DNA from: Stieleria neptunia
GTDB lineage: Bacteria > Planctomycetota > Planctomycetia > Pirellulales > Pirellulaceae
NCBI RefSeq assembly: GCF_007754155.1
Contig: NZ_CP037423.1
Location: 1,488,001-1,552,000, forward strand
Reading direction: 5' to 3'
Length of the DNA stretch: 64,000 nucleotides
Position numbers and translations under genes: made by a program. Shown one piece after another: positions 3,277 to 7,800 of the stretch. Within the stretch, counting starts at the first letter, position 1, and each line of letters begins with the position of its first letter. Below the pieces are notes generated by a model. It was not told the origin of the DNA. It was given only the letters and a program-made list of their open reading frames with translations, and ran no database searches.

Positions 3277-5481
3277 GTGTCGAACGACCCCCAAGATCGC
3301 CGCCCCCAGGATCGCAGCCTCCAGGATCGCAGCGCCGCGACGGCGCAGCGCCGCCCACGCCGGCAGAGTCATCAGCCCGGCAATCGGCTCGTCCGGATGT
3401 GCCAGAAAGAGCTCCGCGAGACGATGCGTGACCGCCGAACGATCATCACGCTGGTGATGATGCCCCTGCTGGTCTATCCGCTGCTGAGCATGGCGCTGAA
3501 TCGTTTTTTGGTTTCGTCCACGGCGGGAACGTCCGAGCAGACGCCGTACACGATCGGCGTCGAAACCGACGACGAAGGCAACCTGTTGCTGGCGTGGCTG
3601 GAAGACCCGATGAGCCAGCCACCCGCGGCGATCCTGAAGGCCAGCAAGGGGAAACTCGCCACGTTTCGTGTCGTCAACACCACGTCCGTCGGACTCAATC
3701 CCAAGCAAGCCCTCCAAGAGAAAAAGATCGATTTGGCAGCCCGCATCGAAGCGGGGAATCCGCCACGATTGCGATTGACGGCGTTCAACGGTGATCCGCC
3801 CAGCCAGGGCGCCCAACGGATTTTGACCGAACGGCTGCATTGGTTGCGTTTGGCGCGTGCCGAAACGCTCGCCCAGTCACAATTGAGTGATTACACGCCG
3901 CCGACGGAGGTCTCCGTGGAGAACGTCGGGGTCGCCGAAAAGCCGTCGATGCTGGGCACAATCGTACCGCTCGTGTTGGTGTTGATGACGATCACCGGTG
4001 CGGTTTACCCGGCGATCGATTTGACCGCCGGCGAGCGAGAACGGGGCACGATGGAGTCGCTGATGGCATCGCCGGTGCCCCGCTCGTACATCTTGTTCTC
4101 AAAATACGTTGCCGTCGTCGTCGTCGCCTTGCTCACCGCGATGGCGAACCTGTTGGCGATGTTCACGACGCTGTGGGCAGGCCGGCTGCTACCACTGTTG
4201 ACCGGTGGGGAAGACGCGTTTCCGTGGTTGGCCGTGCTGCAAATCCTCGGGCTGTTGGTGCTCTTCAGCGGCTTCTTTGCAGCCGTGCTGCTGTCGCTGA
4301 CCAGCTTCGCGCGCTCGTTCAAAGAAGCCCAGGCCTATTTGATTCCCGTCATGCTGCTGTCGTTGACTCCGGGGATGTTGTCGCTGATGCCCGGGGTGAC
4401 CTTGAAGGGGCCCTTGGCGATTGCCCCGTTGATCAACATCGTCTTGCTGGCACGTGAGGTGTTGCAGGGGACGGCGCAAGCGGCGCCCGCGGTGATCACG
4501 GTCCTCAGTACAATCGGATATGCCGTGGCCGCGATCGCCATCGCATCGAAGTTGTTCGGCAGCGATGCGGTCAGCCGTACCAGCGGGCAATCGTTCGGCG
4601 CCATGTTGAAACGACCGACGCGCCCGACGCCGACGCCGTCACCCCAAGCCGCCGCGATGACGCTGGCGTTGTTGGTTCCGATCTATTATCTGGTCAGCAA
4701 CGTGCTGATCCGGATCGTGCCCGAGCTGTCCATCACCACGGTGCTGATGCTCAACGCCATCGCGCTGATTTTGACCTTCGGCCTGATCCCGTTTGTCTCG
4801 GTCGTGTTGGCACGCTGCAATTTCTCGACGAGCTATCAATTGGCGATGCCGTCACCGCTGGCACTGCTGGGGGCGCTGCTGGTCGGGTTGGGAGCTTGGG
4901 GGTTTGCGCACGAGTCGTTTGTGATTGCCAAGCAGATGGGAATCGGCGGGCTGGATGTGGATCGGATCGAAAAGACACGGCAAACCGTCGAAGCACTGAA
5001 AGTCGCTCCGGCGTGGTTGCTGGTGGGGACCCTGGCGCTGGCACCTGCGGTGATCGAAGAATTGTGCTTTCGCGGATTTTTGTTCACGGCACTTCGCAAG
5101 GTCCTCTCGCCGGCTCGGGTGATCGTGACCACCGCCGTCATTTTTGGACTGTTCCACGTCGTGACCGGCAACATGTTGCTGATCGAGCGATTTGTGCCGA
5201 CGACGCTGCTGGGGCTGATCCTCGGCTGGATCGCCTATCGCACCCAAAGCGTTTGGCCCGGTGTGCTGATGCATTTCACCCACAACGCCCTATTGAATCT
5301 GGCCACGAAGTACCAGGACAAGATCGCGTTTCTCGGCGAAGGGTTCGAGAACCAAATGCATCTGCCGGCGACCTGGATGGTCGTTTTGACCACCACGACG
5401 TTGATCGGGTTGGGCATCCTGTGGTTTTCGAGCCCCAAGTCGCCGGTCGCCAAGCCGAATCTGGCAACCACCCCCGCCTGA
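3277..5481 (+). CDS. ABC permease fused to CPBP intramembrane protease
   Basis: 734 residues. The N-terminal half is a NatB/ABC-2-type permease: a first membrane helix near residue 60, a large extracytoplasmic loop, then five or so helices after about 225. It includes the family stretch ERERGTMESLMASPV. The C-terminal third is a CPBP (CAAX protease/bacteriocin-processing, Abi) domain with the three expected motifs: EELCFRGF (EExxxR), FGLFHVV (FxxxH) and HFTHNALLN (HxxxN). All predicted metal or catalytic residues are present, so the protease should be active. This fusion is known in planctomycetes. Whether the protease processes the exported substrate or a membrane partner is unknown. The GTG start follows the ATPase stop directly; the first 45 residues are polar and low-complexity (repeated QDR), so a start further in is possible. 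Confidence 0.9.
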   Translation: MSNDPQDRRPQDRSLQDRSAATAQRRPRRQSHQPGNRLVRMCQKELRETMRDRRTIITLVMMPLLVYPLLSMALNRFLVSSTAGTSEQTPYTIGVETDDEGNLLLAWLEDPMSQPPAAILKASKGKLATFRVVNTTSVGLNPKQALQEKKIDLAARIEAGNPPRLRLTAFNGDPPSQGAQRILTERLHWLRLARAETLAQSQLSDYTPPTEVSVENVGVAEKPSMLGTIVPLVLVLMTITGAVYPAIDLTAGERERGTMESLMASPVPRSYILFSKYVAVVVVALLTAMANLLAMFTTLWAGRLLPLLTGGEDAFPWLAVLQILGLLVLFSGFFAAVLLSLTSFARSFKEAQAYLIPVMLLSLTPGMLSLMPGVTLKGPLAIAPLINIVLLAREVLQGTAQAAPAVITVLSTIGYAVAAIAIASKLFGSDAVSRTSGQSFGAMLKRPTRPTPTPSPQAAAMTLALLVPIYYLVSNVLIRIVPELSITTVLMLNAIALILTFGLIPFVSVVLARCNFSTSYQLAMPSPLALLGALLVGLGAWGFAHESFVIAKQMGIGGLDVDRIEKTRQTVEALKVAPAWLLVGTLALAPAVIEELCFRGFLFTALRKVLSPARVIVTTAVIFGLFHVVTGNMLLIERFVPTTLLGLILGWIAYRTQSVWPGVLMHFTHNALLNLATKYQDKIAFLGEGFENQMHLPATWMVVLTTTTLIGLGILWFSSPKSPVAKPNLATTPA

Positions 5482-5940: not shown

Positions 5941-7800
5941 ATGTCCGACGACCCTCCTGTACCCGCAAACGATTCCTCCTACGTCGTTGTCGCTCGCCGC
6001 TATCGTCCCCGCAATTTCGAAGAATTGGTCGGCCAGGAGCACGTCGGTCGGGCGCTGACCAATGCGATCGAAACCGGGCGGGTCGGTCATGCCTACCTGT
6101 TCACCGGGGCTCGGGGGGTCGGGAAAACCAGCACGGCGCGGATTTTTGCCAAGGCGCTCAACAACCCCGGCGGGCCCAGCGCGACGTTTGACAACAATGA
6201 CGATGTCGCCCAGGCGATCGATTCGGGCGAAGACATCGATGTGATCGAAATCGACGGAGCCAGCAATCGCGGGATCGACGAAATCCGCTCCCTGAGGGCC
6301 AACGTCGGCGTCCGGCCCAGCCGCTCGCGGTACAAAATTTACATCATCGACGAAGTCCACATGCTGACCCAGGCGGCGTTCAATGCGTTGCTGAAGACGC
6401 TGGAGGAACCGCCCGAGCATGTGAAGTTCATCTTCTGCACCACCGACCCGGAGAAGATGCCGATCACGGTCTTGAGTCGGTGTCAACGCTTCGATTTTGC
6501 GCCGGTCGAAGTTTCCAAAATCGTCAAACGGCTACAGGAGATCGTGGCCGCGGAAAATGCCGAGGCCGACGAGGCGGCCCTCGAGCTGGTCGCACGCCGG
6601 GCCGCCGGTTCGATGCGGGATAGCCAATCGTTGCTCGAGCAAGTGCTCAGTTTTAGTGACGGGCATTTGACGGCCGATCAAGTTCACTCGATGCTCGGGA
6701 CCGCCGATGATGAACGGCTGCACAGGCTAGCCCAAGCGATGTGCGAGCGCGATGCCGCCGACGCGCTCGCTCAATTGGACGCGGCAGTCGATGCCGGTGT
6801 CGACGCCGGGCGGATCGCCGAACAACTGTTGGGGTACTTTCGCGACTTGATGGCCGTGACGGTCGGCTGCGACGCCACGCTGCAACGCCACACCGCTGCC
6901 TCCATGCACGGCGAGCTGAAAAAATTGGGGGACGCCTGGGGGCTGCAAACCGTCCTGGCCGTTGTCGCATTGATCGACCAGACGCTCGTTCGGATTCGGC
7001 ACAGCGTCTACGGGCGGGTGTTACTCGAGTCGACCGTGATTCAGATCTGCAACTTGCCCGACTTGCAAGCGATAGCGGATTTGGCCGCCGCTGCTGGCAG
7101 CGGAAAACCGCTGCCCCCTGCCCAGGCGGCACCGCAAAAAAAAAAGCTAGCGGCTGATCCAGCGCCGCCAATCGCGGGGCAACCCGCCACGCCGACGTCT
7201 TCTTCGCCGGCACCCGCCGAGCCGCTGGCCCCCGTCGCGGCTGCTCCGGTTTCTGCTGCTCCGGCCACGTCACCGACCCAGCCTGAACCGCCCGAGCCGG
7301 CCACGAGTTCGCCAGCCACGAGTACGCCGGCCACCAATTCGCCGGCGCCTGCTGGACCCGCGGACGCGTCGGGCTCGCCGCCGTCGCCCAAGATGAGATT
7401 GTCGGCGTCGAACGTTCAAGCAGTCCTGGCGCAGGCGCTCCAGGGCGTTCAGCCGATGACCGCGTCGATCGCCTCGATGGCGGAGGCGCAATTGGAAGGC
7501 AGCTCCAAAATCAATTTGGTCTTTCCGGCCGAGTCATCGATGTCGATGAAGCGGATGGATTTGCCCGAGCATCGCGGGCCGGTGTCTGAGGCGCTGGCCG
7601 AAATCGTCGGCCATCCGGTCACCCTTCAATTGGTCGCCGGCGCCGCGTCGCCCGGGCGCCCCCAGGCCCCCAAGCCGGCGCCCAAGGCGACAGCCAAAGA
7701 GCGGATGGAACGGATGCGAGAGATTGAATCCCATCCCTGGATCCAAGCCTGCGTGCAAACCTTTCAAGCCGAGATCGTCAAGATCGATCCCAAGCAATGA
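5941..7800 (+). CDS. dnaX: DNA polymerase III subunit gamma/tau
   Basis: 619-residue clamp-loader ATPase of the replisome. Walker A is GARGVGKTST (56-65), Walker B/DEVH is IYIIDEVHML (133-142), the sensor 1 region is FIFCTTDPEK, and the arginine-finger motif is VLSRCQRF (177-184). Domain III runs to about 375, followed by a Pro/Ala/Ser-rich linker (about 395-485) and a C-terminal tau-type domain. Two oddities stand out. The zinc-binding loop between residues 73 and 95 has no cysteine at all (NNPGGPSATFDNNDDVAQAI), although it aligns without gaps to the usual C-x8-C-x2-C-x2-C loop. The linker begins with CAA AAA AAA AAG, an A10 run at a likely frameshift or slippage site. The genes often next to dnaX (ebfC/recR) are not in this window. 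Confidence 0.97.
   Translation: MSDDPPVPANDSSYVVVARRYRPRNFEELVGQEHVGRALTNAIETGRVGHAYLFTGARGVGKTSTARIFAKALNNPGGPSATFDNNDDVAQAIDSGEDIDVIEIDGASNRGIDEIRSLRANVGVRPSRSRYKIYIIDEVHMLTQAAFNALLKTLEEPPEHVKFIFCTTDPEKMPITVLSRCQRFDFAPVEVSKIVKRLQEIVAAENAEADEAALELVARRAAGSMRDSQSLLEQVLSFSDGHLTADQVHSMLGTADDERLHRLAQAMCERDAADALAQLDAAVDAGVDAGRIAEQLLGYFRDLMAVTVGCDATLQRHTAASMHGELKKLGDAWGLQTVLAVVALIDQTLVRIRHSVYGRVLLESTVIQICNLPDLQAIADLAAAAGSGKPLPPAQAAPQKKKLAADPAPPIAGQPATPTSSSPAPAEPLAPVAAAPVSAAPATSPTQPEPPEPATSSPATSTPATNSPAPAGPADASGSPPSPKMRLSASNVQAVLAQALQGVQPMTASIASMAEAQLEGSSKINLVFPAESSMSMKRMDLPEHRGPVSEALAEIVGHPVTLQLVAGAASPGRPQAPKPAPKATAKERMERMREIESHPWIQACVQTFQAEIVKIDPKQ
7136..7160 (+). promoter_or_regulatory. Predicted dnaX slippage/frameshift site (A10 run)
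   Basis: Ten A residues at 7136-7145 encode Q399-K402 and contain the in-frame heptamer A AAA AAG used by E. coli dnaX for -1 frameshifting. After a -1 shift (or one extra A) translation reads KASG and stops at TGA, giving about 405 residues. After loss of one A it reads S and stops at TAG, giving about 402. A short stem, GCGGC/GCCGC, lies just downstream. The site is exactly at the end of domain III, where gamma-type products end in other bacteria. Confidence 0.65.

Follow-up and report, generated by a model that had tools for sequence, protein, structure and literature searches.

The dnaX gene of Stieleria neptunia contains a run of ten A's (A10) that we consider, with a probability of about 0.82, to be a programmed transcriptional slippage site of the Thermus type, giving both tau and a gamma-like protein from one gene. 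The window analysed, a stretch of 64,000 nucleotides, covers positions 1488001-1552000 of a genome assembled as a single contig of 10.98 Mb. RNA polymerase would slip on the A10, so that the dnaX mRNAs would vary in their number of A's, below or above ten. Those with 10 or 13 would be translated into full-length tau, whereas in the remainder a stop within four codons would end a gamma-like protein after 402-405 aa. This protein would keep clamp-loader domains I-III and lack the C-terminal part of tau. A gamma-like product from the A10 is strongly supported by the sequence comparisons described below. We infer the slipping of the polymerase, the making of both products and their ratio; the anatomy of the site, its conservation, its codon choice and its stops were observed directly.

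The ORF at 5941-7800 was identified as dnaX, with a match to TIGR02397 (dnaX_nterm) of 426 bits against a cut-off of 250 and Pfam matches to PF13177, PF22608 and PF12169. Tau is not split over two frames in the window but encoded by one ORF of 619 codons, and the linker that separates domain III from the C-terminal part of tau has an in-frame poly-A run of at least nine. The codons across the run are CAA AAA AAA AAG CTA (coordinates in Table 1). The sequence-only reading had described the A10 run, its reading frame, the stops beside it and the lengths of the products, all of which were confirmed on the sequence: the predicted products are 404 aa for A8, 402 aa for A9, 619 aa (tau) for A10, 405 aa for A11 and 403 aa for A12. 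It had also placed the run at the end of domain III; the PF12169 match ends at residue 375 and the run begins in codon 399, 24 codons further on. The TGA at 7155 would also be the stop for a -1 ribosomal shift at the run. The short products, of a predicted 43.4-43.7 kDa, would finish in ...QKKS if one A is lost, in ...QKKKASG if one is gained (or after a -1 ribosomal shift) and in ...QKKKS if two are gained. Elsewhere in the window, positions 3277-5481 hold an ORF of 734 aa, which by its motifs resembles, by eye, a fusion of an ABC-2 permease and a CPBP-type membrane protease.

Table 1. Coordinates of the dnaX features in the window and of two A runs elsewhere in the same genome
Feature	Position	Strand	Remarks
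dnaX, DNA polymerase III tau	5941..7800	+	619 aa, 65.5 kDa; one ORF, zero frame through the run
Domain III codons (residues 243-375)	6667..7065	+	PF12169 match; last domain of the predicted short product
A10, candidate slippage site (codons Q399-K402)	7136..7145	+	From sequence; A9-A11 in 187/206 Planctomycetia loci
TAG stop, +1 frame	7148..7150	+	Reached by losing 1 A or gaining 2; 402 or 403 aa
TGA stop, -1 frame	7155..7157	+	Reached by gaining 1 A or losing 2; 405 or 404 aa
GCGGC/GCCGC stem	7150..7168	+	7150-7154 pairs with 7164-7168; 5 bp, 9-nt loop
L313, coding A10	G000:C1:8496925-8496934		Outside the window; gene with ThuA (PF06283) then PVC CxxCH (TIGR02604)
L331, A9	G000:C1:6511277-6511285		Outside the window; end of Collagen_bind_2 ORF, ...KKK-stop

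In the window itself (57% GC), one A10 was counted where 0.25 was expected, and 19 of 100 shuffled windows contained at least one. One window is thus insufficient to exclude a chance origin for a lone A10, and the case therefore rests on conservation among relatives. Over the whole genome, A or T runs of at least nine were seen 22 times, compared to an expectation of 110 from a first-order model of the window or 82 from a model of about 38 kb of the genome's other loci; runs of up to eight in the window were close to their expected numbers. Such scarcity is expected if runs of this length slip. According to PMC1088944, avoidance of A and T runs sets in at length nine in a large share of bacterial genomes, which matches the length floor of nine in the dnaX runs. 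The same paper describes transcriptional and replication slippage as indistinguishable causes of scarce long runs, and replication slippage may be an alternative cause of the scarcity found here.

Loci for comparison were taken from samples of the genus, family, order, class and phylum, together with 126 further dnaX stretches and 80 named loci. A match to the dnaX core was obtained in 300 of 310 loci, the other 10 being weak paralogue matches or fragments. The end of domain III was located by tblastn and the longest A run within the next 420 nt was recorded, so that a run lying further from this anchor was counted as missing. Twelve duplicate loci were left out of the run counts, two of which were restored and their named twins removed instead, as were L015, where the contig ends inside the gene, and seven loci at contig edges (three family, one phylum, three named). 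Loci were grouped by kinship, placing L252 and L259 in the family; L158 (without a run) and L256 (with a run) were counted and their named twins dropped. The same-genus genome G010 has no DNA at the dnaX site, leaving 13 of 14 genomes assessable.

A run of A9, A10 or A11 was found in the dnaX linker of 187 of the 206 assessable Planctomycetia loci. Runs of at least nine occurred in 13/13 loci of the genus, 125/134 of the family, 31/36 of the order and 18/23 of the class; A10 was the commonest length (112 loci), followed by A9 (73) and A11 (2). In the remainder of the phylum sample, outside the class, just 1 of 26 loci had such a run. It was also present in 15 of the 74 remaining named loci, nine of them Planctomycetota, a fraction that is possibly inflated as one of the six search patterns contains QKKK. 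The non-planctomycete named loci with a run were L063 (Ignavibacteria), L095 and L106 (Bacteroidetes bins), L094 and L103 (Opitutaceae) and L097 (Verrucomicrobia). In L385, the dnaX linker contains two A9 runs with one C between them.

Run length (A10) and phase are identical in the 13 assessable loci of the genus, whereas the 30-nt flanks show an identity of only 0.34 upstream and 0.46 downstream. The suggestion that the run should be conserved in relatives where the linker is not was thus borne out. Identity within the genus was 0.63 over the first 12 nt past the run, where the window has both of its stops. Base composition predicts an identity of 0.27; among 64 representatives with a run, the 30-nt flanks reached 0.30 upstream and 0.27 downstream. 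These representatives came from 77 loci selected at a cut of 75% core identity from the first 181, a cut that is the sole correction for kinship in the representative tests. Every one of the 13 genus loci has the +1-frame stop at the identical place and a -1 stop within 10 codons.

Of the 184 single-ORF Planctomycetia loci with a run, 166 have stops in both non-zero frames no more than 12 codons away, and the zero frame had no stop within 30 codons of the run in 184 of all 187 (in six loci the zero frame was still open at the end of the available DNA). Of 62 representatives, 79% had a -1 stop within five codons (shuffles 32%, control positions 21%) and 65% a +1 stop (shuffles 23%, control positions 16%); neither frequency was reached in any of 200 shuffles. 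The phase of the run differs between loci, with phase 1 in 111, phase 2 in 61 and phase 0 in 15 of the 187. RNA polymerase slippage predicts this pattern of any phase, at least nine A's and closure of both other frames. The likeness to Thermus dnaX drawn in the sequence-only reading holds.

The best surviving alternative, although an unlikely one, is -1 ribosomal frameshifting, in which a downstream stem would help ribosomes to slip at A AAA AAG and translation would end at the TGA. A -1 ribosomal shift requires a stop in the -1 frame only and a heptamer whose phase does not change; a Shine-Dalgarno (SD) motif and a hairpin are common additions. Twelve of the 13 genus loci, including the window (A10, phase 1, next base G), have the heptamer in frame, a -1 stop is near and a 5-bp stem does exist downstream, as had been noted from the sequence. 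Across the class, however, the heptamer is in frame in only 49 of the 184 single-ORF loci, and the runs reach A9 or longer although seven bases suffice for a ribosomal shift. SD-like motifs upstream were found in 6 of 63 representatives versus 8.9% of control windows, and none was seen by eye just upstream of the run in the window. Downstream folding gave a mean z of -0.36 (63 representatives) versus -0.54 (62 control windows). Furthermore, the +1 stop is enriched besides the -1 stop. Variable phase, no SD excess and unremarkable folding thus argue against frameshifting of the E. coli type across the class as a whole; the heptamer and stem stand as described for the window but do not fit the class.

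In the 60 nt downstream of the window's run, z was -0.48 and 57 of 200 shuffles were at least as stable. As judged by eye, the window's 5-bp stem is not predicted in any of the other 12 genus loci; several form other local hairpins, and L003 has a different hairpin of 4 bp at the same distance from the run. An Rfam scan (E<=5) gave two unrelated matches far below their gathering scores and nothing near threshold at the run. The stem is therefore probably incidental. Within the genus, where the phase is fixed and the heptamer occurs in 12 of 13 loci, a ribosomal share is nevertheless possible, and both mechanisms may act together at the window's run.

It is less likely still that a lysine-containing linker was selected for its residues, with no recoding and the A run as a by-product of lysine codons. 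At least two lysines are encoded by any run of nine or more A's whatever its phase. However, lysine codons overlapping the run were AAA:AAG 139:9 compared to 491:624 elsewhere in the same representative genes, showing a strong preference for AAA in the run only. When synonymous codons were shuffled within each gene, a run of nine survived on average in 7.15 of the 62 representatives; these genes were chosen for having the run, so that the figure gauges the surprise in codon choice and not the rate at which runs arise. The varying phase means that the residues at the edges of the run differ between loci, and a lysine linker leaves the enrichment of stops in both other frames unexplained. Selection at the run thus appears, from these comparisons, to act on nucleotides.

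That the run is instead a contingency tract in the DNA, its length changed by replication to turn tau on and off between cells, is very unlikely: homopolymers do mutate and in three family loci the length of the run puts tau out of frame, but the genus is uniform in length and phase, nearly all loci with a run keep the zero frame open past it, and tau-type DnaX is expected from general knowledge to be essential.

These three family loci, L144 and L145 (A9) and L224 (A11), constitute the two-ORF form, found in 3 of 187 relatives with a run. Their zero frame stops within a few codons of the run, and a neighbouring frame (-1 in two loci, +1 in the other) stays open through a sequence like the C-terminal part of tau. 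Provided that the assemblies are correct, these loci would depend on slippage for tau itself, and in the +1 case a -1 shift would not yield it. The genomes are in 80 to 490 contigs, and homopolymer assembly errors are possible. Likewise, the Opitutaceae loci L094 and L103 have a zero-frame stop right after an A10 and a long open -1 frame.

The linker was without a run in 19 of the 206 Planctomycetia loci, including all four sampled loci of genus g19 (L199, L209, L220 and L386), which belongs to the same family as the window and in which the signal seems, from these sequences, to have been lost. The short product is therefore not indispensable in the class. A look for other slippery sequences in 14 of the 19 (L377, L386, L387 and L390 were outside this set and L158 was represented by its twin L052) showed nothing consistent; L272 has an A7. 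In two loci of family f27 from the phylum sample, L302 and L305, dnaX reads G GGA AAA GCC TGA just past domain III. The zero frame stops there and the neighbouring frames remain open for at least 77 codons. The sequence beside this stop resembles, as we take it, a -1 shift heptamer, and these genes possibly represent another type of recoding.

The S. neptunia genome has four A10 runs, two of them in genes, namely dnaX and the ThuA gene (L313). The two others lie outside recognisable genes and adjoin sequence that looked hairpin-like by eye. The codons across the run in the ThuA gene are CAA AAA AAA AAG, as in dnaX, and stops in the other frames follow 3 and 1 codons on. Its A10 was present in 7 of 14 genus genomes, counting S. 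neptunia. In two of them, the single-contig genomes G002 and G004, the gene is split between two frames whose overlap falls at the run, and the four other relatives with A10 have a -1 stop 3 to 5 codons on and a +1 stop 14 to 16 codons on. The ThuA + CxxCH gene has the same anatomy as dnaX and is the more novel lead. It was rejected as a second site for the whole family, with a run of at least nine in only 1 of 27 homologues scanned outside the genus (L423, A9).

At L331, the A9 ends a Collagen_bind_2 ORF and the -1 frame continues for 328 codons into a Kelch domain. This arrangement was found in G000, G004 and G008, and no A run of at least eight was seen at the same place in the 11 other genus genomes. 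With 3 of 14 genomes, L331 was discarded as a genus-wide site. It is a weak candidate for slippage that would fuse the two ORFs, and the Kelch ORF may have its own start. A further A9, at L339 (G000:C1:8841736, outside the window), lies in an ORF that by eye resembles DNA topoisomerase I in its translation; stops are 20 and 5 codons away, and it is not of the dnaX type.

Tentatively, and with somewhat less than even confidence, we suggest that Planctomycetia use slippage at A9-A10 as a regular means of expression that goes beyond dnaX. It would supply both gamma and tau across most of the class, switches of dnaX between one and two ORFs would be tolerated, and slippage would have been recruited elsewhere in single lineages, for the ThuA + CxxCH gene and perhaps for the Kelch fusion. 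If this is true, the short product of the ThuA + CxxCH gene would be the ThuA domain alone, and slippage at the overlapping ORF pair would perhaps yield a fusion to the Kelch propeller. In dnaX, the signature is kept in most sampled members of the class, and selection for a short DnaX is therefore probably old and strong in Planctomycetia. It has long been asked whether most bacteria make a gamma form of DnaX, and the run-less genus g19 and the two-ORF loci L144, L145 and L224 offer natural experiments on the purpose of gamma and on the efficiency of polymerase slippage. Gene callers would record tau alone, and two-ORF forms are possibly called pseudogenes. Most bacteria keep no frameshift signatures in dnaX, according to one review (PMC3290774). 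Among the papers listed, leaving aside the species figure of PMC3711429, we found none on slippage in planctomycete dnaX, and did not find the spread across Planctomycetia in print.

Three known systems can be compared with the window's dnaX. In Thermus thermophilus, transcriptional slippage at an A9 in dnaX is reported as established (PMC1088944, PMC5009743). Both genes have a single tau ORF with an A run of at least nine, stops nearby in the other frames and a shorter gamma-like product, which in the window is predicted. They differ in phylum, in run length (A9 in Thermus, A10 in the window) and in the position of the run, which is reported to lie seven-eighths along the coding sequence in Thermus compared to about two-thirds in the window; slippage is reported as demonstrated in the former and is proposed for the latter. 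The second system is the two-ORF type. According to PMC3711429, 12 of 17 two-ORF dnaX genes in the GeneTack set have poly-A, nine of these A10, located at the frame change, and transcriptional realignment is proposed for them; the data table includes two planctomycete genomes. L144, L145, L224, L094 and L103 look like this set. The two-ORF type needs a shift in order to make tau, whereas dnaX in the window is one ORF. The third is the -1 frameshift of E. coli dnaX, which shares with the window the gene, the expected outcome and A_AAA_AAG. Unlike E. coli dnaX, however, the window and its relatives show no SD excess, no stem shared within the genus, a run longer than a ribosomal shift needs and an enriched +1 stop.
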